Positions 5,264 through 42,997 of a DNA stretch of 64,000 nucleotides are shown in pieces. Source of the stretch: Rhizobium favelukesii (GTDB lineage Bacteria > Pseudomonadota > Alphaproteobacteria > Rhizobiales > Rhizobiaceae); contig NZ_HG916855.1 in NCBI RefSeq assembly GCF_000577275.2, positions 558,001-622,000 of the forward strand, in the 5' to 3' direction. The stretch's first letter is position 1. Every line of letters begins with the position of its first letter. The translations under genes were made by a program, and so were the position numbers. Below the pieces are notes generated by a model. The model saw only the letters and a list, made by a program, of their open reading frames with translations. It was not told the origin of the DNA and made no database searches.

Positions 5264-7033
5264 CTATTGCACCCGGTGTCGTTCGCTGGCAAGCGCGTCG
5301 TCCGCGCCCGCTTTGACAAGCCCGTCGCGAATGTGCTGCGTGTCGGATTCTCGAGCGTAGTGCAACGTGGCGAGGAAGGACTCGAGGCCGAAGTCGGGGG
5401 CGATCGCTCTGACCTTCTTCAAATGCGCAGAACCAGCAACGTCGTCGCCGAGCCAACCGTAGCAGGCGGCGACGAAGGCGTGCTGGACGTGATCCATCAC
5501 CGAAAGGTGCATGAATGCCTCGATTGCTTCACCGTATTGCCGCGCGGCGAAATACGCCTTCCCGAGATGACTCCAGAATCGTTCCGGGTGATGGGGATTG
5601 AGCCGCATCGCCTTGCGAATCCACTCTACCCCTTCTTCCGGCCGACCAAGCCACGTCAAGAGCTCGCCCTGCTGGACCACCACCAGGTCGTAATTGGGAT
5701 TGAGCGAAAGGGCACGCTCCTGGTGATAGCGGGCCGTCATCAGCTCGTTGTTGTTCACGTTCACGGCGGCGAGGATGCGATGTACGTCGGCATCGTTGTC
5801 GTCGAGCCCCAGCGCCCGTTCCAGCTCGGCAACGATCTCGGCCCAGACAGCATCCTTGTCCTCGCACCAGCCGAGCACCCACGCCTGCCCGAGGATGCAG
5901 GCCCGCCAGGCATGGGCATGCGCATATCCGGGGTCGAGTGCGAGCGCCCTGTCTATCAGGGCCTGGGCCTGCTTATTGTCAGCGACGGTGGCCCGGTGAT
6001 GCAGCACCTTGGCTGTGAGAGCACATTCGTAGGCGGCCATGTTCGCCGGCTTCGTGCGGGCGAGGTGGTCTCGTTGGGCGGCCTCGAGACGCCCTGGCAG
6101 AGTGGCCGCTATCGCTGCCGTCACCTCGTCCTGAATGGCGAAAATGTCGTCCAGCCTTCGGTCGTATCTATCGGCCCAGACATGGGCATCGTTGGCCGCG
6201 TCGATGAGCTGGACCGTCACCCGCACCCTGTCGCCGATCTTCCGGACGCTGCCTTCCACCAGATACTGGGCCCCAAGCTTCTCGGCCACTTCGCGCGCGT
6301 TCACGGGCTGATTCTTGTAGACGAAACTGGAATTGCGCGAGATGACGAAGAGTTCGTGGCGGCGCGACAGCTCGGTGATGATGTCCTCGGTCAAGCCGTC
6401 CGCAAAAAACTCCTGCTCGGGATCGCCGCTCATGTTGTCGAACGGCAGTACGGCGATCGAGGGCTTGGAGACGGCTCGCTTCGCGTCCTTTTCCTCCGGC
6501 GAGGCCGGCAGGACGGAGCCCTCTAGCCCCAACCGATAAAGATGCACGGGACGGCTGATGTTCTTCAGCGTTTTCTCGCCCAGGTCCTCGATCGGGACAT
6601 CGAGACGGTCAGCAATCTGTGTCGCCACCGCAGCCGTGACGCAGATGCCCCCCACATCGGCCAGTTGCTCGATCCGGGCGGCGATATTCACGCCATCGCC
6701 AAAGATGTCGTCGTCGTCGAAAATGATATCGCCGAGATTGATGCCAATCCTGAATTCGATCCGCCGATCCTGAGGCACATCCGAATTGCGCCGCCTCATG
6801 CGCTGCTGGATTTCTACGGCGCATTTCACCGCGTCGGTGACGCTCTGGAATTCCACCAGCATGCCGTCGCCCGTCGTCTTGATGATCCGGCCCCCGTTCT
6901 TTGCGATGGCGGGATCGATCAATTCGATTCGGTGCGTTTTGAGGCGGGCGATCGTGCCTGCTTCGTCGGCCTCCATCAGCCGACTATAGCCTGCCATATC
7001 GGACGCCAGGATTGCGGCGAGTCTTTGTTTCAT
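5264..7033 (-). CDS. Class III adenylate/guanylate cyclase with TolB-like and TPR domains (paralogue)
   Basis: A 589-residue paralogue of the cyclase at 216-2105, aligning without gaps over the first 120 residues. D12 (ILASDMAGY), K52, D56 (TTGDGM) and N116/R120 (VNIAAR) are conserved, so the cyclase should be active. A TolB-like domain starts near PSIAVLPFDN (about 192) and contains a GLTEDIITELS block. TPR repeats fill the C-terminal half. Unlike its paralogue there is no clear hydrophobic segment between the cyclase and TolB parts, so this protein may be soluble. Only a weak ribosome-binding site precedes the ATG. Role: cyclic nucleotide synthesis with an unknown input. Confidence 0.88.
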   Translation of the reverse strand: MKQRLAAILASDMAGYSRLMEADEAGTIARLKTHRIELIDPAIAKNGGRIIKTTGDGMLVEFQSVTDAVKCAVEIQQRMRRRNSDVPQDRRIEFRIGINLGDIIFDDDDIFGDGVNIAARIEQLADVGGICVTAAVATQIADRLDVPIEDLGEKTLKNISRPVHLYRLGLEGSVLPASPEEKDAKRAVSKPSIAVLPFDNMSGDPEQEFFADGLTEDIITELSRRHELFVISRNSSFVYKNQPVNAREVAEKLGAQYLVEGSVRKIGDRVRVTVQLIDAANDAHVWADRYDRRLDDIFAIQDEVTAAIAATLPGRLEAAQRDHLARTKPANMAAYECALTAKVLHHRATVADNKQAQALIDRALALDPGYAHAHAWRACILGQAWVLGWCEDKDAVWAEIVAELERALGLDDNDADVHRILAAVNVNNNELMTARYHQERALSLNPNYDLVVVQQGELLTWLGRPEEGVEWIRKAMRLNPHHPERFWSHLGKAYFAARQYGEAIEAFMHLSVMDHVQHAFVAACYGWLGDDVAGSAHLKKVRAIAPDFGLESFLATLHYARESDTQHIRDGLVKAGADDALASERHRVQ

Positions 7034-32413: not shown

Positions 32414-34231
32414 TCAGGAAGCTGTTGTTTTGGCCTTGGCACGGAGATAGTTTCGCCAACCGCCGAAGTCGGTGATATCCAGCGCATCAACAATGGCATG
32501 GGCTTCGCACAGGAAGCCCGAGACCGCGGTGCCGTCATCCAGTGAGATCTTGCCGATGCCAAGCGGTGCAGGGATTTTCTGGACGAAGCGACCGAAGGCT
32601 TCGGGTGACAGTGCCCAGACCTCGACCTCCACACCCTTGCCCGCAAAGCTTGGATCGCGCACCAATCCTGGTTTGGGGGGGACGGTTCCAGACAGCGCGA
32701 AGAGACGGTAGTCGCCCGCCGTTCGGCAAGTTTTCAGCCGGTATCCGCCCGAAGAGGCGAGTTCGTGGTTGAGCGGCATGCCGCTCAGATGTGCCCCGAC
32801 GACGACAATCGGCACCGAGCCGTCATCGGCTTGCGGCACACGACTTGCCTCGGGTATTTTGGCCACACGATCCTTGCCCATTCCCGCATTCAACGTCCGG
32901 TGCATGGCGTCGGCGAATGAGGCAAGGGCATCGTCGGTAAACGCCGGGCCGATCAGTGTCACACCGGCCGGCAGGTGGCCGTGCGCGTCAAAACCGGCCG
33001 GAACGGCGATTGCCGCGCAATCGAGCAGATTGACGAAGTTGGTGTATCGCCCGAAATGACCGTTTTTCACGATTGGATCCGCCTTCATCTCTTCGACCGT
33101 GTAGGTGGTCGGCGAGGTCGGCAGCATCAGGATATCCGCCTTCCCCCACTCTTCCCTGGTCTTCTGGCGTAGCGCTTCGAGCTTGTATCGGCCCTCGAAG
33201 GCGTCAACGGCGTCGTAGGCTTTGGCGCCCTCGATGATGGTGTGCACGGTGGGATCGAAGTCGCCGGCGTTCGTTGCGAGAAAATCCTTCACGGCCGCCA
33301 GCCGTTCGGCGACCCAGGGGCCGTTGTAGAGCAGTTCGGCCGCCTGCCGGAACGGCGCATAGTCGAAGGCAACGATGGTGGCGCCGAGCACGCGTGCTCT
33401 TTCGATTGCGGCGTCATAGAGGGCTTCGACCTGCCTGTTGCCGAAGAATTCCCGCTCGGCCCCGTCAAGCACGCCGATCCGGAGGCCCGAGGCGGGCAGG
33501 CTGGCGGGAGCCGCTTTGCGCGAGAACGGATCGGCGGCGTCATAGCCTTCCATCACCTTGCGGATCGCAACGCCATCGCCAACCGTCGCGGCAAAAATGG
33601 TGACGACGTCGACGCTGCGGCAGGCAGGCACGACGCCGACGTTCGGCACCAGCCCAGGCGTCGGCTTGATGCCAACGAGATTGTTGAAGGCCGCCGGCAC
33701 GCGGCCGGAACCGGCCGTGTCGGTGCCGAGCGCGAAGCTCGCCAGGCCCGAAGCGACGGCAACCGCCGAGCCGGAACTCGAGCCGCCCGACACATAGTCC
33801 TTGTCGAAAACCGAGCGCGGCGCGCCGTGGGGCGAGCGCGTGCCGTTGAGGCCGGTGGCGAACTGGTCGAGATTGGTCTTGCCGATCACCAGCGCGCCGG
33901 CGGCTTTGAGCCGTGCCACCACCGTTGCGTCCATGTCGGGATGATAGGCGAAGGCCGGGCAGGCGGCCGTCGTCGGAAGCCCGGCCACATCGATATTGTC
34001 CTTGACCGCAAAAGGGATGCCCCAGAGCGGAAGACTGTTGGGATTGGGCGCGCGGGCCATCAGCGCCTTGGCGGCGTCGCGCAGCATATCGTCCGGCGTC
34101 GGCATGATGAAGATCGCCGGATCGTCGGAAGCATTGCGGCGGATGATCACTTCCTCGACGAGATCGAGAGGTGACAATCCCGATGCATAGGTGGATTTGA
34201 GCGAAGCGAGATCGAGAATAGCAGGGAGCAT
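32414..34231 (-). CDS. atzF: Allophanate hydrolase
   Basis: 605 residues. The N-terminal amidase-signature domain has K77 (AVKDN), the glycine/serine loop GGSSSGS (149-155) and nucleophile S175 (DTAGSGR). A C-terminal domain of about 140 residues (from about 460) is typical of AtzF-type allophanate hydrolases, which hydrolyse allophanate to ammonia and CO2 with the C-terminal domain acting on N-carboxycarbamate. Its start overlaps the carboxylase stop by one base (TGATG). It is the last step of guanidine or urea assimilation. Confidence 0.95.
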   Translation of the reverse strand: MLPAILDLASLKSTYASGLSPLDLVEEVIIRRNASDDPAIFIMPTPDDMLRDAAKALMARAPNPNSLPLWGIPFAVKDNIDVAGLPTTAACPAFAYHPDMDATVVARLKAAGALVIGKTNLDQFATGLNGTRSPHGAPRSVFDKDYVSGGSSSGSAVAVASGLASFALGTDTAGSGRVPAAFNNLVGIKPTPGLVPNVGVVPACRSVDVVTIFAATVGDGVAIRKVMEGYDAADPFSRKAAPASLPASGLRIGVLDGAEREFFGNRQVEALYDAAIERARVLGATIVAFDYAPFRQAAELLYNGPWVAERLAAVKDFLATNAGDFDPTVHTIIEGAKAYDAVDAFEGRYKLEALRQKTREEWGKADILMLPTSPTTYTVEEMKADPIVKNGHFGRYTNFVNLLDCAAIAVPAGFDAHGHLPAGVTLIGPAFTDDALASFADAMHRTLNAGMGKDRVAKIPEASRVPQADDGSVPIVVVGAHLSGMPLNHELASSGGYRLKTCRTAGDYRLFALSGTVPPKPGLVRDPSFAGKGVEVEVWALSPEAFGRFVQKIPAPLGIGKISLDDGTAVSGFLCEAHAIVDALDITDFGGWRNYLRAKAKTTAS

Positions 34232-37200
34232 CAGATTTCCTCCAAGACGACGAGGACATCGCCGGCTTTCACGTTGCGGCCGGGGCCCGCGCGCAGATCG
34301 CGGACGCGCCCGGCGGCATGGGCGGTCACATTGATTTCCATCTTCATGGATTCGATGATGGCAAGCGTCTCGCCGGAGGCGACCGGCTGGCCTTCTTCGA
34401 CGAGGATCTTCCAGACGTTGCCGGGCACGGCGCTTTCGATGCCGAAGCAGCCTTCTGGAATATCGCCCCCAAGCCCAGGACCGGTGCCGGCCTCGTCGAC
34501 GACAAAACTGTCGAGGCCGAAATCCTTCCAGCGCTGGCGTTCGGCCTCGAAGGCCAATTGCTGGTTGGCCTTAAAGGCGCCGATGGCCTGCGCGTTGACG
34601 GCAAGCTCCGCTTCATAGGCCGCATAGCTGAATTCGGTCTCCTCGATGCGGATCGGATAGCCGCCGTGAGGGAAGGCGGCGCGCGCCTCGGTCAGTTCCT
34701 CATGGCTCACGGGGAAGAAGCGGATCTGATCGAAGAAGTCGAGCAGCCAGGGCTTTTCCTTGGAAAAGACTGGCGTCTGGTGCCAGGTGTTCCAGACCTG
34801 GATCGTGCGGCCGAAAAGCTGATAGCCGCCCGGACCTTCCATGCCGTAGATACACATATAGGCGCCGCCGATGCCGACGGCGTTTTCCGGCGTCCAGGTT
34901 CGGGCCGGATTATATTTGGTCGTCACCAGACGATGGCGCGGGTCCATCGGTGTGGCCACCGGCGCGCCGAGATAGACGTCGCCGAGCCCGAGGACGATAT
35001 AGCTGGCGTCGAAGACGATGTTGCGCACCGCCTGTTCGTCGGCCAGGCCGTTGATGCGGCGGATGAACTCGATATTCGACGGGCACCATGGCGCATTGGG
35101 GCGGACAAGCTCCTGGTATTTGCGCATCGCAAGTTCGGCGTCGGGATCGTTCCAGGAGAGCGGCAGATGCACGACCCGGCTCGGGACCTTCACCGCCTGC
35201 GCCGGCGGCAGGCAAGCCTCGATCTCGGTCAAGAGGCCAACGAGGCGCGTGCGGGTAAGACCGGTTCCATCATAGTGGATCTGCAGCGACCGTATGCCGG
35301 GCGTGAGATCGACGAGCCCCGGAAGCTTCGCGTCCGTGATCGCCTGCATCAGCAGATGCACGCGCAGGCGCAGCGCGATATCGAGCTGCATCGGTCCGTA
35401 CTCGACCAGCAGATTGTCGTCGCCCTGGCGGCGATAGACCACGGGGACCGGTCCCACCTCGTTGCGTCCGATGATCGCGGCACCGGCATCGTCGCCGATG
35501 CGCTTCACCATCGGCCCGGCGATCGGGTCCTCGGCGCGTTTTAGAGCACGGAAGCGGATCTTGTCGCCCGGTTTGAACTGACCCATCTTCCATTGCTCGT
35601 CGCGAGCAATCACCGCCGGGCAGACGAAGCCGCCGAGGCTTGGGCCGTCGGGGCCGAGAATGATCGGCATGTCGCCGGTGAAGTCGATTGCGCCCACCGC
35701 ATAGGCATTATCGTGCAGGTTGGATGGATGAAGTCCCGCTTCGCCGCCGTCGGCGCGCGCCCATTTTGGCGCGGGGCCGATCAGGCGCACGCCGGTGCGG
35801 GCGCTGTTGAAATGAACCTCGTATTCGGTGGCAAACAGCGTTTCGATATCTTCCTCCAGAAAGAAATCGGGAGCGCCATGGGGACCGTAGAGCACGCCGA
35901 CCTCCCAGTCGCGCGTGAGCCGGACTGGCTCATTAGCCGGCTTTGATACTGACTGCGGAACACGCGCCAGCCGCAGCACATGTCCGGCGCGAAGCGTTCC
36001 CGTGGCATGACCACCGAACTTGCCCAGGCCGAAGGTTGCGCGCGAACCGAGCACTTCCGGGGCCGCGAACCCGCCCGCGACGGCGAGATAGGAGCGCTGC
36101 CCGGCACCGGCGATCGCCCCGATCGCAAGCGTTTGGCCCGCCTTTACGAGGATTGCCATGCCGTGCTGAACCGGCGTGCCGTCGAGTGTCATCGGCATTT
36201 GTGCGCCGGCCAGTGCGACCGTGACATCCGAGAAGAATTTGAGCACAGGGCCGGAGACGGTAATCTCGAGTGCCGCCGTTTCGTCGGCGTTTCCGAGCAC
36301 CCGGTTGGCATGGCGGAAGGATCGTTCGTCCATCGGTCCGCTTGGCGGCACCCCGACATGCCAGAGACCCAGCCGTCCGGGCAGTTCCTGCAGGCTCGAT
36401 TGAGCGCCCGGCGCTATTACTTCGACGACATCCGGCACGAAGACAAAATCCTTGAGTGCCGTCGTTGCCACATTGCCGCTCGCCAGCAGATCGGAAGCCG
36501 CGATCGCTTTCAGATAATCGAGATTGGTCTCGATCCCGGAAATCGCGCTGTCCTCGAGCGCCTTGCCGAGTGCCTCGATTGCGGCGGGGCGATCCTTAGC
36601 CTTCACGATCACCTTGGCGAGCATGGGATCGTAATAGGAGCTTACCTCTGTGCCCGTCTCGATCCAACCGTCGACACGCACGTTTTCGGGAAAGACAACC
36701 TCGGTCAGAAGTCCAGCACTTGGCCTGAACCCGGCATGCGGCATTTCGGCATAGATGCGCGCCTCGATGGCAGCACCCTTGGGAACGAGATTCTCCTTGC
36801 CGGCGAGCACGTCTTCGCCCGCGGCCTGGCGGATCATCCACTCGACGAGATCGATGCCGAAGACCGCTTCGGTGACCGGATGCTCGACCTGCAGCCGGGT
36901 GTTGACCTCAAGGAAATAAAATTCCTCGCCAGCCGGATCATAGATGAATTCGACCGTTCCCGCCGACCGGTAGTGGGCGGAGGCGCCGAGGGCGACGGCC
37001 GCTGCATGCAGGCGGGTTCGAACGGCGTCGGACAACCCCGGCGCTGGCGTCTCCTCGATCACCTTCTGGTTCCGGCGCTGCAAAGAGCAGTCGCGTTCGC
37101 CAAGCGCGATCACCCGGCCATTGCCGTCGCCGAAAATCTGCACTTCGACATGGCGGGCCCTGGCGACAAAGCGTTCAAGATAGACGCGGGCATCGCCGAA

Positions 37201-37770
37201 GCTTGCGCGCGCGGTACGCTGCACGCTCTCGAAGGCTGCCTTCAGGCTTTCGGGGTTGTCGCAAAGCTGCATGCCGATGCCACCGCCGCCGGCGGTCGAT
37301 TTCAGCATCAGCGGATAGCCGATGTCGGTCGCGGCCGTGAGCGCGTCGTCGCTCGTCTCCAACAGTGTGCTGCCGCGAAGTAGCGGCACACCGCTTTCGC
37401 GCGCCAGCTCGCGGGCAGTATGTTTCAGCCCGAAGGCGGCGATATTGCCGGGCGTCGGGCCGATGAAGGCAATGCCTTCCTTCGCCAGCCGCTCGGCAAA
37501 GCCGATATTCTCCGACAGGAAGCCGTAGCCCGGATGCACGGCTTCGGCACCGGTCGCCTTGCAGGCAGCGATGACGGCGTCGACGTCGAGGTAGCTTTCG
37601 GACGCCGGTGCCGGACCGAGCCGTACCGCCTCGTCCGCCATCAGTACAGCCTTGGAAAAGCGGTCGGCATCCGAATAGACGGCGACGGAGGCAATACCCA
37701 TGCGCTGCAACGTCTTGATGATCCGGACAGCGATTTCGCCCCGGTTTGCGATCAGAACCTTCTTGAACAT
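34231..37770 (-). CDS. Guanidine carboxylase (annotated as urea carboxylase), biotin-dependent
   Basis: 1179 residues from the ATG at 37770 (the frame runs further upstream without similarity). Order: biotin carboxylase with ATP-grasp (1-450, FKKVLIANRGEIAVRI; STAGGGGIGM), KipA-like carboxyltransferase domain (about 470-790), KipI-like domain (about 800-1010), and biotin carrier domain with K1143 in ESMKM. It carboxylates urea or guanidine with ATP and bicarbonate. The riboswitch and the DUF1989 partners point to guanidine as the physiological substrate; published work shows that enzymes in this context prefer it. The sequence alone does not settle specificity. Confidence 0.93.
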   Translation of the reverse strand: MFKKVLIANRGEIAVRIIKTLQRMGIASVAVYSDADRFSKAVLMADEAVRLGPAPASESYLDVDAVIAACKATGAEAVHPGYGFLSENIGFAERLAKEGIAFIGPTPGNIAAFGLKHTARELARESGVPLLRGSTLLETSDDALTAATDIGYPLMLKSTAGGGGIGMQLCDNPESLKAAFESVQRTARASFGDARVYLERFVARARHVEVQIFGDGNGRVIALGERDCSLQRRNQKVIEETPAPGLSDAVRTRLHAAAVALGASAHYRSAGTVEFIYDPAGEEFYFLEVNTRLQVEHPVTEAVFGIDLVEWMIRQAAGEDVLAGKENLVPKGAAIEARIYAEMPHAGFRPSAGLLTEVVFPENVRVDGWIETGTEVSSYYDPMLAKVIVKAKDRPAAIEALGKALEDSAISGIETNLDYLKAIAASDLLASGNVATTALKDFVFVPDVVEVIAPGAQSSLQELPGRLGLWHVGVPPSGPMDERSFRHANRVLGNADETAALEITVSGPVLKFFSDVTVALAGAQMPMTLDGTPVQHGMAILVKAGQTLAIGAIAGAGQRSYLAVAGGFAAPEVLGSRATFGLGKFGGHATGTLRAGHVLRLARVPQSVSKPANEPVRLTRDWEVGVLYGPHGAPDFFLEEDIETLFATEYEVHFNSARTGVRLIGPAPKWARADGGEAGLHPSNLHDNAYAVGAIDFTGDMPIILGPDGPSLGGFVCPAVIARDEQWKMGQFKPGDKIRFRALKRAEDPIAGPMVKRIGDDAGAAIIGRNEVGPVPVVYRRQGDDNLLVEYGPMQLDIALRLRVHLLMQAITDAKLPGLVDLTPGIRSLQIHYDGTGLTRTRLVGLLTEIEACLPPAQAVKVPSRVVHLPLSWNDPDAELAMRKYQELVRPNAPWCPSNIEFIRRINGLADEQAVRNIVFDASYIVLGLGDVYLGAPVATPMDPRHRLVTTKYNPARTWTPENAVGIGGAYMCIYGMEGPGGYQLFGRTIQVWNTWHQTPVFSKEKPWLLDFFDQIRFFPVSHEELTEARAAFPHGGYPIRIEETEFSYAAYEAELAVNAQAIGAFKANQQLAFEAERQRWKDFGLDSFVVDEAGTGPGLGGDIPEGCFGIESAVPGNVWKILVEEGQPVASGETLAIIESMKMEINVTAHAAGRVRDLRAGPGRNVKAGDVLVVLEEI

Positions 37771-37771
37771 G

Positions 37772-38422
37772 TCAGACCTCGCTGTCCCAGACCAGCACTC
37801 GGATCGGTGTCGGATCAAAACCGTTGCAAGGATTGTTGATCTGCGGGCAATTGGAGATGACGAGCAGGACATCCATTTCCGCTTTCAGCTCCACATAGTC
37901 GCCCGGTGCGGAAATCCCGTCGACGATCGTCATCTCGCCGCTCGGCTCGATGGGTACGTTCATGAAGAAATTGATGTTGGGGACGACATCGCGCTTGCTC
38001 ATGCCGTGCCTGCATACTTCGAGAACGAAATTGTCCCGGCAGGCATGGAGATATTTGGTGCCATTGCCGAAGCGGACTGTATTACTCTCGCAGGAGCAGG
38101 CGCCGGCTGAGGTATCGTGGCGACCGCAACTGTCGGCGGCCATGGTCAGCATCACCCGGCCTTCATTGGAGATGATTTTGGTGCCGGTCGAGATATAGGC
38201 CGCGCCCTGTTCGCGCATCGTGTCCTGGTTGGAATAGCGCTCGCAATAGTCTTCCGCGCTATAGAAGAGCGTGTCGATCGCCTGCTGGCCGTATGTGTCC
38301 TCGATGCGCAACATCTGGCCCTTGCGGATAACCGTCGAGAACGGTGCTTCGGCGGCAATGAAGTGATCCTGCACGGCGTTCTCGAGCGTGCGGAAGGGTG
38401 CTGTCTGGATGAAATCGGTCAT
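37772..38422 (-). CDS. Carboxyguanidine deiminase subunit, DUF1989 (urea carboxylase-associated protein 1)
   Basis: 216 residues, start ATG at 38422 with GGGGAG upstream. DUF1989 protein with the conserved block SCGRHDTSAGACSCESN (HD plus cysteine-rich loop) and the tail ISNCPQINNPCNGFDPTPI. Together with the next DUF1989 protein it forms a heteromer (CgdAB in the literature) that deiminates carboxyguanidine to allophanate and ammonia. It starts 13 bp after its partner's stop, and its own stop lies just before the carboxylase start. Confidence 0.9.
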   Translation of the reverse strand: MTDFIQTAPFRTLENAVQDHFIAAEAPFSTVIRKGQMLRIEDTYGQQAIDTLFYSAEDYCERYSNQDTMREQGAAYISTGTKIISNEGRVMLTMAADSCGRHDTSAGACSCESNTVRFGNGTKYLHACRDNFVLEVCRHGMSKRDVVPNINFFMNVPIEPSGEMTIVDGISAPGDYVELKAEMDVLLVISNCPQINNPCNGFDPTPIRVLVWDSEV

Positions 38423-38435
38423 GGTCTTGCTCCCC

Positions 38436-39254
38436 TCACAATGCCGCCAGCGTGTTGTTTTCAAAACCGCGTACGGCTTCAGCAGTCGCGGTCCGGCAAA
38501 GGTCGTCGGCAGGAGGCTCGACCGCTGCGACGCGGGTGACGGTCACCGGATTCGGCCGGTAAACCTTGTCCGGATCGAACGGGTGAGGGCAGTTGGAAAA
38601 GCCGACGATCATATCCATCTCGGCGCGCAGCTCGACATAATCGCCTCCATGCAGAAGTTCCGGCTTCCACAGGAAGGCGCCGTCCTGATCGACGCGGACG
38701 GGGGCAAAGAGCGCCAGCGCCGGCGGAATGTCACGCTTGTCGAACCCGGCCTTGGTCGCAAGCAGGATCAAGTTGTCACGGGTATTGCGCGTGCCGTCTG
38801 CGTATTTTGCCGCGTTCGACGCAGAGGTCGAGCCGCCCATCAGTCCATCATGGGCGCCGCAGGAGTCTTCCGTCACCGAAAACATCACCCGGCCCATGTC
38901 GGAGAAGATCACCCGGCCCTTGCCGAGAGCAGTCGTCCACTGCACCTTCACCGTGTCAGGCAGATTCAGCCGCTCGCTCGTATCGGCAGCGCTCCAGGCG
39001 ACGAGGGAGATCGTCGAGAAGCCGTGATCGAGGCTGACGCGTAACACTTCGTTCTTCTTGACACGGGTCGACCAGTACCAGCCCCCGGGGATCACTTCGC
39101 GGTGGACGATCTTGTCGGGCGCGATCTCGGGCGCAGGCAATCGGCTTGCTCCCGGTAAGGCCTTCGGCGCGAATTCGAGCCCCTTCCTTTGATGTTCCTC
39201 GTAGCGCGCGCGGTTGGCGGCTATTTCTTCCGGCGAACGTCTGACATGTGTCAC
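38436..39254 (-). CDS. Carboxyguanidine deiminase subunit, DUF1989 (urea carboxylase-associated protein 2)
   Basis: 272 residues from a GTG at 39254, which overlaps the ATPase stop as GTGA and has AGGAG nine bases upstream; the longer frame to 39293 is rejected. DUF1989 fold with SCGAHDGLMGGSTSASN. Compared with its partner, the cysteines of the HD loop are replaced by Gly/Ser, suggesting division of labour, with the metal or catalytic site in the other subunit (inference). Forms the deiminase with the product of 37772-38422. Confidence 0.9.
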   Translation of the reverse strand: MTHVRRSPEEIAANRARYEEHQRKGLEFAPKALPGASRLPAPEIAPDKIVHREVIPGGWYWSTRVKKNEVLRVSLDHGFSTISLVAWSAADTSERLNLPDTVKVQWTTALGKGRVIFSDMGRVMFSVTEDSCGAHDGLMGGSTSASNAAKYADGTRNTRDNLILLATKAGFDKRDIPPALALFAPVRVDQDGAFLWKPELLHGGDYVELRAEMDMIVGFSNCPHPFDPDKVYRPNPVTVTRVAAVEPPADDLCRTATAEAVRGFENNTLAAL

Positions 39255-40078
39255 AGTTGGATTTCTCCTGACGAAGCCAGGTCGTCCCGGCAATGCCCCA
39301 GGGAAGCGACCGGGCCGTCCCGGTCGGGGCTGAAGATCGATGGCGTGCCGGCAAGGCGTGGCGGCCAGATGGAAATGTCCTTGGTGATGGTTGCGCCGTA
39401 GCGCTCCTTTTCCTCTGGACGGTCGCGGCGACGCTCGAAGGCGACGACGCGCGTCGCAAGCGTGAAGGCCTCGCGCATGTCGTGCGTCACCATGACGACG
39501 GTCATCTGCGTTTCGTGCCAGAGCCGCTTCATCAGTGCGTGGATTTCGGCGCGGATGCCCGGATCAAGCGCGCCGAAAGGCTCGTCGAGTAGCAACACCT
39601 TCGGCTTCATGATAAGGGCCTGCGCCAGCGCCAGGCGCTGCTGCATGCCGCCCGAAAGCTGCGCCGGATATTTGTCCTCGGCGCCGGAAAGGCCGACTTC
39701 GCCGATCAGCCGCCGGGCTTCGTCGACCGCGCGGCTACGGGCAGTACCGAAAAGCTTAGCCTTATAGCGGGAAGCGGAGAATTCGCGACCGAGCAGTACG
39801 TTGCCGAGTACGCTCAGATGCGGAAACACCGAGTAGCGCTGGAAGACAACGCCGCGGTCCGGCCCGGGCTCGGGCGGCAGCGGTTCGCCGTCGAGCAGGA
39901 TTGCGCCCCGGGTCGGCCGCTCCTGGCCGAGCAGCATGCGCAGGAACGTCGTCTTCCCACAGCCGGACGGACCGACGAGGGCGACGAAGGCACGCGAGGC
40001 AACTGTCAGCGACACATCCTCAAGCACGATCTGGTCGCCATATTCCTTCCAGACCTTTTCGATCACAAGTTCGCTCAT
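39251..40078 (-). CDS. NitT/TauT-type ABC transporter ATP-binding protein
   Basis: 275 residues from the ATG at 40078 (overlapping the permease stop as ATGA; an upstream ATG at 40102 is out of place). Walker A GPSGCGKT, signature LSGGMQQR, Walker B VLLLDEP, and VTHDMREA. The C-terminal extension is typical of ATPases in urea-carboxylase-linked transporters. It powers guanidine (or related) uptake. Confidence 0.93.
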   Translation of the reverse strand: MSELVIEKVWKEYGDQIVLEDVSLTVASRAFVALVGPSGCGKTTFLRMLLGQERPTRGAILLDGEPLPPEPGPDRGVVFQRYSVFPHLSVLGNVLLGREFSASRYKAKLFGTARSRAVDEARRLIGEVGLSGAEDKYPAQLSGGMQQRLALAQALIMKPKVLLLDEPFGALDPGIRAEIHALMKRLWHETQMTVVMVTHDMREAFTLATRVVAFERRRDRPEEKERYGATITKDISIWPPRLAGTPSIFSPDRDGPVASLGHCRDDLASSGEIQL

Positions 40079-40893
40079 GCCTGCTTCTCCAACTCCGACC
40101 AAGGGAAGAGAGCGATCCGGATGCGATCGAGGATATAATTCATGACCACGGCGAGCAGCGTGATCCAGACGACATAGGGAAAGATGATGTCCATCGAGAG
40201 ATAACGGCGCACGAGGAAGATACGGTAGCCGAGGCCGGAATCCGACGAGATTGCCTCGGCTGCAATCAGGAATAGCCAGGCGGGACCGAGCTGAAGTCTG
40301 AGGCAGGTGATCAGTCGCGGAAGGATCTGCGGCAGAACGACGCGAAGGCCGATCTGCCAGGAAGAGCCGCCGAGCGATTCAGCCTTGACGATCTGTTCGC
40401 GCGGCAGTTCCAGCGCCTTCAGCGCAAGGTCGCGGATCATCGTCGGCGCAACGCCGATGACGATGAGCGCGATCTTGGAGGCTTCCCCAAGCCCCATGGC
40501 GATGAAGAGGATCGGCAGCAGCGCCAGCGGCGGCACCATGGAGATCACGGCGATGAAAGGCGAAAGCAGCGCTCGCAGATAAGGCAGCATGCCGATCAGC
40601 ATGCCAATGACGAGCGCAGTGACGGTCGAAATGCCGAGGCCTGCAAACAGGCGCACCAGGCTCGCCCCCGTATCGGACCAGAGCAGGTATTCGCCTGTGC
40701 GCGGATCAGCGACGAAGGCCAGGCGATCGATCGCCTCGGCAAAACCTGTAAGACCGGGCAGCAGCTTGTCATTGGCGTTTTCCGCCAGCCGCGCCGCCGA
40801 GCCAAAAGTGTAGCTGACGATCAGCAGCAAGAAGGGCAGCAGCATCAAGGCAAGCTGCGCACCTCGGCTCGGCCTCGTGTTGATCCAACGCAT
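40075..40893 (-). CDS. NitT/TauT-type ABC transporter permease
   Basis: 272-residue inner-membrane permease of the SsuC/TauC class with about six helices. The EAA-type loop reads KAESLGGSSWQIGLRVVLPQ. Located between the binding protein and ATPase genes of the guanidine operon. Confidence 0.92.
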   Translation of the reverse strand: MRWINTRPSRGAQLALMLLPFLLLIVSYTFGSAARLAENANDKLLPGLTGFAEAIDRLAFVADPRTGEYLLWSDTGASLVRLFAGLGISTVTALVIGMLIGMLPYLRALLSPFIAVISMVPPLALLPILFIAMGLGEASKIALIVIGVAPTMIRDLALKALELPREQIVKAESLGGSSWQIGLRVVLPQILPRLITCLRLQLGPAWLFLIAAEAISSDSGLGYRIFLVRRYLSMDIIFPYVVWITLLAVVMNYILDRIRIALFPWSELEKQA

Positions 40894-40956: not shown

Positions 40957-42030
40957 TCAGAGCGAACCGTCGGCGGCTGCTTTCATGTAGGTCTCGGTGA
41001 AGCGCAGCTTGACGTTGCCACTGTCGCCGAGAATCTTGCCGTCCGGCATTTCGATGCCGATCACGTCCGCGGACGGCGCGCCATTGCCAAGCAAGCCCTT
41101 CTCGAACAGGAAGTTGCGGACGAGATCCATCGTCTTCGGCAGGCTCCCAGATGCGGTAAAAGCGACAGCATCGGCCGGCTTGGCAAACAGTTTGGTGGCC
41201 GCAAGCTGGGACTCGAAACCCTTGAGATCGGTGCCCGATGCCGAACCCATCGCCTCGCGCGCGGCTTTGCCGTCGGCGCTGTCGGCAGTCAGGAGGGCTG
41301 CGGTCTCATACCAGATACCGGCAAGCGCCTTGCCGAAATTCGGATTGTCCTTCAGCACGCCCGTATTGGCGGCCATCAGGTCGATGATCTCGCCCGGCAC
41401 CTGCGAACTATCGAACACCTTCTTGGCGGAGGGGTCCTCGAGAATGGTCGAGACCAGCGGGTTCCAGGTAACGACTGCGGTCACGTCAGCTGTCTTATAG
41501 GCGGCGACCATGTCGGCATCGGAGGTGTTGACCACCTTCACGTCGCGCTCGGTCATCTTGCTGCTCTCGAGCGCGCGGGCAAGCAGATAGTGCGAGACGG
41601 AAAATTCGACGAGATTGACGTTCTGGCCCTTGATGTCGGCAAGCGCGCTCTTGTCCTTGAGAATGACGGCATCATTGCCGTTCGAGAAGTCGCCGACAAT
41701 GACGGCCGTCGTATCGACGCCGCCGGCGGCCGGGATCGAGAGACCGTCCATATTGGTGAGCGTCACAGCATCGAAGGCGCCGGCCGTATACTGGTTCATC
41801 GATTCGACGTAGTCGTTGAACTGCGTGACCTCGATCTTGATGCCGTATTTATCGGCCCATTTCTTGACGATGCCGTGATCGGCCGCATAACCCCAGGGCA
41901 TCCATCCGACATAGATCGACCAGGCAACCTTGAACTCGGTCTTCTGCGCGGCATCGGCGGAGGTGCCAAAGCCAAGCATCAGGGAAGCTGACAGGGCGGT
42001 GATGGAAAGAAGCTTCGAAAAAGTCTGCAT
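40957..42030 (-). CDS. NitT/TauT-type periplasmic substrate-binding protein
   Basis: 357 residues with a signal peptide (1-28, ending SADAA). Type 2 periplasmic-binding fold: FKVAWSIYVGWMPWGYA and YVESMNQYTAGAFDAVTLTN. Homologues sit in urea-carboxylase-associated operons. First gene after the guanidine-I riboswitch and probably the transporter's guanidine receptor, inferred from the riboswitch. Confidence 0.92.
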   Translation of the reverse strand: MQTFSKLLSITALSASLMLGFGTSADAAQKTEFKVAWSIYVGWMPWGYAADHGIVKKWADKYGIKIEVTQFNDYVESMNQYTAGAFDAVTLTNMDGLSIPAAGGVDTTAVIVGDFSNGNDAVILKDKSALADIKGQNVNLVEFSVSHYLLARALESSKMTERDVKVVNTSDADMVAAYKTADVTAVVTWNPLVSTILEDPSAKKVFDSSQVPGEIIDLMAANTGVLKDNPNFGKALAGIWYETAALLTADSADGKAAREAMGSASGTDLKGFESQLAATKLFAKPADAVAFTASGSLPKTMDLVRNFLFEKGLLGNGAPSADVIGIEMPDGKILGDSGNVKLRFTETYMKAAADGSL

Positions 42031-42103
42031 TTGAAATTCCCCTTTTGCTTTTTTTCAAAAAGGGATCGGCAAAGACCATCGCGCCGCCAATCCCTTGGCT
42101 TAC

Positions 42104-42213
42104 GAGGTCTCCCGGGCTTTTGTCCCGCCGTGCATCCAGTGGGATTTCTCCCCACCAGCGGCAGCTCTCGGACCAGCACGCTTTTTGAAGCGCCGGAACC
42201 CTAGCCACCAACT
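42104..42213 (-). promoter_or_regulatory. Guanidine-I (ykkC) riboswitch
   Basis: On the minus strand, the hallmark blocks appear in order: CTAGGGTTCCG (about 42203-42193), GGTCCGAGAG (42173-42164), then ACGGCGGGACAAAAGCCC followed by GGGAGA (about 42132-42108). These match the ykkC consensus, including the conserved ACGR and GGGAGA segments. The aptamer ends about 75 bp before the binding-protein ATG. Binding of guanidinium normally turns expression on; the expression platform was not resolved. Confidence 0.92.
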
Positions 42214-42225
42214 CAGCAATTTCGA

Positions 42226-42241
42226 AGCAAGAGGCGTGCCA
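42226..42241 (-). promoter_or_regulatory. Sigma-54 (RpoN) promoter of the guanidine operon
   Basis: TGGCACGcctcTTGCT on the minus strand is an exact match to the -24/-12 consensus TGGCACG-N4-TTGCW. Transcription would start about 12 bp after the -12 GC, near 42214, right at the 5' edge of the riboswitch. Confidence 0.85.
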
Positions 42242-42312
42242 AATTATAAACTATTGATTTCTATCATTTCTGTTCGCGCAAGAATCTAGGACTGTCTACA
42301 GTTGATAGCATC

Positions 42313-42329
42313 TGCTCAATGTTTGAGCA
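42313..42329. promoter_or_regulatory. Putative NtrC-type enhancer site
   Basis: TGCTCAATGTTTGAGCA is a 17-bp inverted repeat of the TGC-N11-GCA form recognised by NtrC, with six paired bases per arm. It lies about 100 bp upstream of the predicted start, the usual distance for a sigma-54 enhancer. Binding not shown. Confidence 0.55.
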
Positions 42330-42997
42330 CTGATCGGCGAGGATGTAACCGGAAAACTCTAACCAAAAACGGTCCAGTTTGAAGGGTTCAGATCAATATA
42401 TCCCGAATTGATGCAAGGCCGCTCTCCGCCTCGCGGAGGTGACATCGGGGAATGGACGCGGCTATGCGCTTTAAGCGACCCCGACACCGGGATGGCGACA
42501 TTCCTCGGGATTCTTAAGGTCGTTGACTAAACTCCGCAGGGTACTATCGGGGGCCAAAGTGGAGAGCGTAAACTCGAAGCGCGGCCTTCGTGCCACTAAC
42601 TGGCCCGTCACCATTTTAAGGGACTCCACAATATCGTTGGTCCGAAGAATAAGAGGCCGCCTGCGGCATCGTCGTAGACCACGGCGGGTGGCTATGGCAT
42701 CGGCCTCGACTATGCCCGCGAAATGATCAAGCCTGCGTGAGGATCGCGAACAATGCCCTTGCAATTCGATGCTACCGACTGCCAGATCGTCCCGGCCAGG
42801 ACGCTCGCCGAGCTCAAGGACGGCGAGATCAGGACATAAAAGTCGGGGCAGGAGGCGAGGTTCGTTGCACAATGAGGCCCGTTCATAGAATCGGTATGCC
42901 TGCCTGCTCTGATTTGAAGTGCTGTTTGCGAACGAAAGGACAAGGAGCTATGGCGTAACTCTCGGTTGCTTGAAAGCTCGAGCAAAGGGATGCGGGC
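42330..42997. other. Decayed region with short coding fragments
   Basis: About 670 bp. On the plus strand a fragment reads GGYGIGLDYAREMIKPA and stops near 42740; another starts MPLQFDATDCQIVPARTLAE at 42752 and stops. Both are protein-like but too short to assign. No complete gene. Confidence 0.35.

Follow-up and report, generated by a model that had tools for sequence, protein, structure and literature searches.

A predicted sigma-54 promoter and an NtrC-like enhancer dyad in series with the guanidine-I riboswitch of a guanidine-assimilation operon in Rhizobium favelukesii

Introduction

The physiological meaning of guanidine sensing is described as still elusive in the available passages of PMC12186494. 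A 64,000-nucleotide stretch of the Rhizobium favelukesii genome (NZ_HG916855.1, positions 558,001 to 622,000; here called the window) raises this question in a specific form: is its riboswitch-preceded operon opened by guanidine alone, or must nitrogen limitation be sensed as well? A first-pass annotation of this DNA had proposed the latter, with a sigma-54 (RpoN) promoter and an NtrC-like palindrome stacked on the riboswitch. Our comparison with related loci bears on that proposal and adds to it a genus-conserved IHF-like site, a terminator behind the aptamer, the spread of the layout, and a contrast between assimilation and efflux genes.

Results and Discussion

The operon and its riboswitches

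The features of the locus are collected in Table 1. In the available passages of PMC12186494, the same gene set constitutes the guanidine carboxylase pathway, and the guanidine carboxylation operons described there and in the available part of PMC12508155 have a similar set of genes with a guanidine-I riboswitch in front and a guanidine-II riboswitch inside, so the presence of both classes in one operon is known from other bacteria. The riboswitches and the UAAP genes together indicate that the TIGR02712 protein is probably a guanidine carboxylase. The start of the UAAP1 open reading frame is probably placed too far upstream, since it lies inside the guanidine-II match.

TABLE 1 Features of the locus in window coordinates, with minus-sign positions counted from the predicted transcription start
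Feature	Positions	Strand	Details
Putative NtrC-like enhancer dyad, TGCTCAAACATTGAGCA	42313-42329	-	TGC-N11-GCA; centre -106; 7/7 arm pairs
IHF-like site, AATCAATAGTTTA	42247-42259	-	-44 to -32; matches WATCAANNNNTTR, which we take to be the IHF consensus
Predicted sigma-54 (RpoN) -24/-12 promoter, TGGCACGCCTCTTGCT	42226-42241	-	Exact match to TGGCACG-N4-TTGCW
Predicted transcription start	42215	-	From C of GC (42227) = -12; purines at +2 and +3
Guanidine-I riboswitch aptamer (RF00442)	42107-42215	-	83.5 bits (gathering score 63); model positions 1-107
Predicted intrinsic terminator, AAGGGATTGGC..GCCGATCCCTTTTT	42057-42096	-	13 pairs counting G-T; loop 11; T run
ABC transporter substrate-binding protein (TIGR03427)	40957-42030	-	550.7 bits; first gene
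ABC transporter permease	40075-40893	-	
ABC transporter ATP-binding protein	39251-40102	-	
Internal guanidine-II riboswitch (RF01068)	39277-39326	-	39.7 bits; ATPase/UAAP1 junction
UAAP1 (TIGR03425)	38436-39293	-	Profile match
UAAP2 (TIGR03424)	37772-38464	-	Profile match
Urea carboxylase family (TIGR02712)	34231-37872	-	Profile match
Allophanate hydrolase (TIGR02713)	32414-34231	-	Next gene of the set

The terminator behind the aptamer is the likely expression platform of the riboswitch. Riboswitches of this class are transcriptional ON switches according to PMC12186494, in the passages available. A stock scan of 41900-42700 listed no terminator because its loops were limited to at most 8 nucleotides, and a scan permitting longer loops found this one. 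Folding of the leader, computed without ligand, gave no clear two-state picture. Terminator-like stems were found at 70 of 165 loci in the order (20 in one shuffle) and at 4 of 35 outside it (3 in the shuffle), so attenuation is not claimed for all of these riboswitches.

Predicted promoter at the guanidine-I riboswitch

Immediately upstream of the aptamer, TGGCACGCCTCTTGCT agrees with the sigma-54 consensus at all 12 specified bases, with GG at -24 and GC at -12 at the fixed spacing, and the exact match claimed in the first-pass annotation therefore stands. The predicted +1 coincides with the first position of the RF00442 model, which accords with the further expectation that transcription would start at the first bases of the riboswitch. 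Only 8 perfect TGGCACGN4TTGCW sites are listed for both strands of the 7.57-Mb genome, which also encodes RpoN (418.4 bits against a cut-off of 277.35). A sigma-70 promoter at the locus was rejected, a simple scan of 41900-42700 having returned no sigma-70-like candidate. A sigma-54 promoter is almost certainly present at this guanidine-I riboswitch.

Conservation within the order

The sample for the order (Rhizobiales) comprised 206 guanidine-I riboswitches from 185 genomes. It left out 38 RF00442 matches of at most 53 bits, below the gathering score, and took in four of 58 to 62 bits; of 110 matches in the genus, 64 were used, consisting of the best-scoring loci, those already in the set, and a manually chosen range of the others. 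One locus (L014) has almost no sequence downstream. We searched the 30 positions directly upstream of each riboswitch and called a sigma-54 element where at least 10 of the 12 consensus bases were present with GG and GC intact.

This slot scored at least 10 at 184 of the 206 loci, and the element was kept in place, with GG and GC intact, at 179 of them. Chance would give 0.34 in 206 slots, as calculated from 62 such matches in 1,120,112 background flank positions, although the relatives within the order are not independent events and the shuffles used in this study carry no correction for kinship. Neighbouring upstream control windows reached a score of 10 in 3 of 2,266 cases. A chance match of the promoter was rejected on the basis of these counts and of the few perfect sites listed genome-wide. 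The distance from the predicted +1 to the aptamer start is likewise preserved (-1 to +3 in 172 of the 184 loci). Where a binding-protein gene is the best downstream match, which is the case for 176 riboswitches, 160 have the full element and 165 score at least 9. The comparison across related rhizobia that the first-pass annotation had suggested places the promoter and the aptamer among the conserved islands of 57 genus loci, thinned for redundancy; upstream, conservation is clear only at about -120 to -81, at -50 to -31, and at the promoter itself.

Loci that lack the element

The element falls below the threshold at 27 of the 206 loci, 22 of which score less than 10. At five binding-protein loci (L026, L086, L154, L186, and L190), a sigma-70-like -10 element can be recognized by eye in place of the sigma-54 element despite rpoN matches in their genomes (that of G358 below the cut-off), and the nitrogen gate is therefore not universal. 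These five are guanidine import operons and appear to be natural guanidine-only versions. Five other riboswitches without the promoter (L015, L018, L119, L129, and L134) stand in front of UAAP genes. In two of these genomes (G193 and G034), a further guanidine-I riboswitch does have the promoter, a pattern that fits an internal switch without need of its own; in the remaining three, a second guanidine-I match is absent among the matches listed. UAAP genes are also the best match at six loci that possess the element. Absence of rpoN was rejected as the cause of the exceptions, since all 20 genomes queried have a match, 19 of them above the cut-off and one (G358) in three pieces below it.

Spread outside the order

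Among other Pseudomonadota, 44 of 46 guanidine-I riboswitch matches were used. The element lies in the same 30-position slot at 2 of the 44 and within 110 nt upstream at 36, mostly at 49 to 99 nt. On the same strand, the 700 nt downstream contain no such element at any of the 44. The predicted RNA ahead of the aptamer is 23 to 73 nt long at 34 of the 36. Only 1 of 5 loci from the host's class but outside its order has the element. In the outside-order loci numbered L237 to L290, the 23- to 73-nt leader that separates the predicted sigma-54 start from the aptamer often shows a small hairpin by eye. The motif ACAATnTG was seen near the aptamer at 14 of 44 loci outside the order and at 1 of 206 within it.

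Guanidine-II riboswitches as a contrast set

From 68 RF01068 matches, 50 guanidine-II riboswitches were taken, 20 of them chosen away from guanidine-I operons. None of the 50 has a sigma-54 element reaching 9 of 12 within 150 nt upstream. Ten precede a carboxylase or UAAP1 gene, and 40 have no assimilation-gene match; the first open reading frames of these 40, judged by eye, are small multidrug resistance-like (30), chlorhexidine-type-like (3), or not classed (7). Of three first open reading frames of guanidine-II loci searched against Pfam, two were confirmed as small multidrug resistance proteins and the third as a chlorhexidine-type efflux protein. The counts of 179/206 inside the order and 36/44 outside it, set against 0/50 for guanidine-II, indicate that the predicted nitrogen-type promoter belongs to assimilation operons under guanidine-I and is absent from efflux genes under guanidine-II. 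The host's own genome has a guanidine-II riboswitch (L413, C59:165481-165528) before a chlorhexidine-type efflux transporter (PF05232), unlike the small multidrug resistance type.

These data also bear on the reading that the -24/-12 match and the palindrome are chance matches or relics and that transcription starts elsewhere. A bare TGC-N11-GCA is common enough to lend that reading something, but the conservation of the slot and the empty guanidine-II set make it exceedingly improbable, and we retain the sigma-54 promoter in what follows.

The upstream dyad and its conservation

The 17-bp TGC-N11-GCA palindrome that had been placed about 100 bp upstream was recovered with every arm pair matched, and a weaker 4/6 dyad is centred near it at -87; the palindrome falls in the genus-conserved island at about -120 to -81. 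The locus palindrome alone would prove little, because stretches of about 190 bp hold a bare TGC-N11-GCA by chance with some frequency (on average 16.1 of 166 after shuffling); its weight would come from conservation and position in relatives. Dyads were counted in a redundancy-thinned set of 166 upstream regions from the order, and TGC-N11-GCA ranks first among 1,216 dyads (65 against 15.3; z = 12.4). The 65 regions also exceed the maximum of 26 reached in 100 shuffles. Versions with N10 or N12 are not enriched in these regions, and outside the order TGC-N11-GCA is fifth in the list with a modest enrichment (11 of 35 against 4.4 to 4.7). For other activators, we assumed the consensuses TGT-N10-ACA (NifA type) and CAA-N3..5-TTG (NtrX type); both are at chance in the 166 regions (3 against 3.3 and 35 against 31.2 expected, respectively), and sites of either type were rejected.

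Position is more telling than the exact motif. Dyads of at least 5/6 occur at -135 to -80 in 136 of the 166 regions, compared with 66, 60, and 47 in three control windows, and exact dyads occur there in 47, compared with 12, 9, and 4. The exact TGC-N11-GCA near -100 is thus a minority feature of the orthologous promoters. Outside the genus, the spacing of dyad centres has a 10.5-bp period (R = 0.47, n = 155), and a control stretch gives R = 0.14 (n = 70). Such phasing would be expected if the activator has to bind on one face of the helix.

The glnK-amtB promoter of the host, an NtrC/sigma-54 promoter, is similar in having a sigma-54 element (TGGCACGCCCTTTGAA) and a TGC-N11-GCA-like dyad (TGCGCGATTATTGGGCA) centred at -108. 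Rhizobial promoters of the glnK-amtB type differ from the guanidine promoter, which runs straight into a riboswitch, within the order with almost no leader. As a control, we examined glnK at 30 loci of the genus, whose species are close relatives. All 30 have the sigma-54 element and a 5/6 dyad at -129 to -107, and further 5/6 dyads occur in nearly every one at about -166 and -148. The exact dyad is found at only 3, twice at -148 and near -108 only in the host genome. As a positive control, the exact dyad therefore failed at 27 of 30 loci: even at a well-established nitrogen promoter it has little diagnostic value, while the relaxed form is not very specific, so that position and phasing carry the argument for NtrC.

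Identity of the activator

The host genome has one ntrC match above the cut-off (697.1 bits against 558.6), and five further proteins match the ntrC model over the AAA+ region, below the cut-off. A dedicated activator beside the operon was rejected, as no gene for an enhancer-binding protein was found within the window or within the flanks, of up to 8 kb, at 80 named loci. With no activator gene close by, the best candidate is the global regulator NtrC, which we consider very likely.

In the available part of PMC10746234, a footprinted NtrC site of S. meliloti is TGC-N11-GCA at -101 to -116. In an ntrC mutant of B. cenocepacia H111 under nitrogen limitation, the urea carboxylase gene BCAS0272 is reduced 6.0-fold, and BCAS0269 (a related transporter) and BCAS0271 appear in the same lists, entered as na(m) (PMC5491218, in the portions available). 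That regulon resembles the arrangement predicted here in placing a urea carboxylase operon under nitrogen control, although a riboswitch is not mentioned in the main text of PMC5491218.

A plasmid record from a B. cenocepacia strain other than H111 (L453) carries divergent guanidine-I riboswitches at 6050-6181 and 6614-6738, each with an 11/12 sigma-54 element, 49 and 54 nt upstream. One faces UAAP1, UAAP2, and the carboxylase, and the other faces a binding-protein relative (28% identity). Gene names and order suggest that this operon is the H111 operon. The TGC-N11-GCA dyad was not found at either of the two promoters. The guanidine pathway of L453 is predicted to be split over two transcripts, each with its own sigma-54 element.

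For the activator, then, the proposal of NtrC gains from the top-ranked dyad, its phasing, its agreement in position with the footprinted site, the absence of a nearby activator gene, and the Burkholderia mutant; what does not carry over to most relatives is the exact dyad. That the sigma-54 promoter is real and is served by NtrX, NifA, or some other enhancer-binding protein would be compatible with the five additional AAA+ matches and with the absence of the exact dyad from many orthologous promoters, from glnK in most relatives, and from Burkholderia. We nevertheless regard this as quite improbable, given that NifA-type and NtrX-type dyads are at chance, that the flanks of 80 loci lack an activator gene, that the glnK promoters, with one mismatch tolerated, carry a similar dyad at comparable distances, and that ntrC has an effect in the available Burkholderia data. 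NtrC is therefore retained as the candidate below.

The IHF-like site

Between the dyad and the promoter, the IHF-like site coincides with the conserved island at -50 to -31 and recurs at 31 of the 51 loci compared in the genus, where shuffling gives 0.1 on average. As a general feature of these promoters, it was rejected, since it is found at only 3 of 115 loci elsewhere in the order and at none of 35 outside it.

A proposed pair of gates in series

From the elements, their positions, and their conservation in the sequence, we infer the use of sigma-54, the participation of NtrC, a role for IHF, and an AND logic, and we propose with high confidence in the explanation as a whole that two gates in series control the guanidine-assimilation operon. 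Phosphorylated NtrC, formed under nitrogen limitation, would bind the dyad at -106 and perhaps also the weaker dyad at -87, some two turns of the helix nearer the promoter. IHF would bend the DNA at -44 to -32, and NtrC would open the sigma-54 polymerase held at -24/-12. RNA synthesis would begin right at the 5' end of the guanidine-I aptamer, and the transcript would stop at the terminator (42096-42057) unless the aptamer has guanidine bound. Nitrogen limitation and guanidine would both be needed for production of the importer, UAAP1/2, the carboxylase, and allophanate hydrolase, with the internal guanidine-II riboswitch as a second guanidine check ahead of UAAP1. Efflux genes on guanidine-II riboswitches, lacking a nitrogen gate, would provide detoxification on guanidine alone.

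AND logic is the best-supported reading of the output and appears likely, because the predicted sigma-54 promoter feeds a riboswitch whose class is reported to turn transcription on. Both gates could exist without a strict AND if incomplete termination, an additional promoter, or the guanidine-II switch gave useful expression on a single input. The sigma-70-like promoters of five relatives, by which guanidine-only control seems viable, point in that direction, as does the ntrC effect in Burkholderia, reported with guanidine unmentioned in the available portions of PMC5491218. Against this stand the empty sigma-70 scan at the locus, the strong terminator behind the aptamer, and the Vreelandella proteomes, in which the operon proteins are induced on guanidine relative to ammonium and mostly undetected on ammonium, both inputs having changed at once (PMC12508155, available part). 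On balance, single-input expression of this kind is unlikely, and the AND gate remains our preferred reading.

More broadly, it seems probable that across much of Pseudomonadota assimilation is governed by sigma-54/NtrC feeding a guanidine-I riboswitch, an AND gate within one 5' region, that efflux is gated by guanidine alone, and that guanidine is an emergency nitrogen source. If true, guanidine would be handled in two ways, as food only when nitrogen is short and as poison at any time. Experiments with guanidine versus ammonium as the sole nitrogen source would then mix both gates, and induction could not be assigned to the riboswitches alone, because that comparison changes both inputs. The arrangement would also be a switch found naturally in soil bacteria, with two inputs that are both known.

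Relation to earlier reports

Passages of PMC12186494 and PMC12508155 credit induction to the riboswitches, to which the host promoter would add a predicted sigma-54 gate. In the main text of PMC12186494, sigma and RpoN are absent and the only "Ntr" word is an author's name; NtrC is absent from PMC12508155. A sigma-54 prediction is shared by the COG3665 regulon of PMC12316311, in the available part of which 102 genes have predicted sigma-54 control and 59% are named urea carboxylase, but no link to a riboswitch is made there and the word occurs only in one reference title. In the main texts, as available, of papers on nitrogen starvation, NtrC, and sigma-54, a term look-up found urea carboxylase, urea amidolyase, allophanate, and riboswitch to be absent. 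The parts are thus known; what appears new, relative to a searched literature that included few subscription journals, is their joining in one 5' region, the spread of this layout, and its absence from guanidine-II efflux genes.

Other features of the window

Elsewhere in the window, on the plus strand, we found an alphaproteobacterial ar14 small RNA (RF02344; 46726-46850; 104.3 bits) with three CUCCUCC-type loops and a group II intron match (RF00029; 22334-22403; 50.5 bits).
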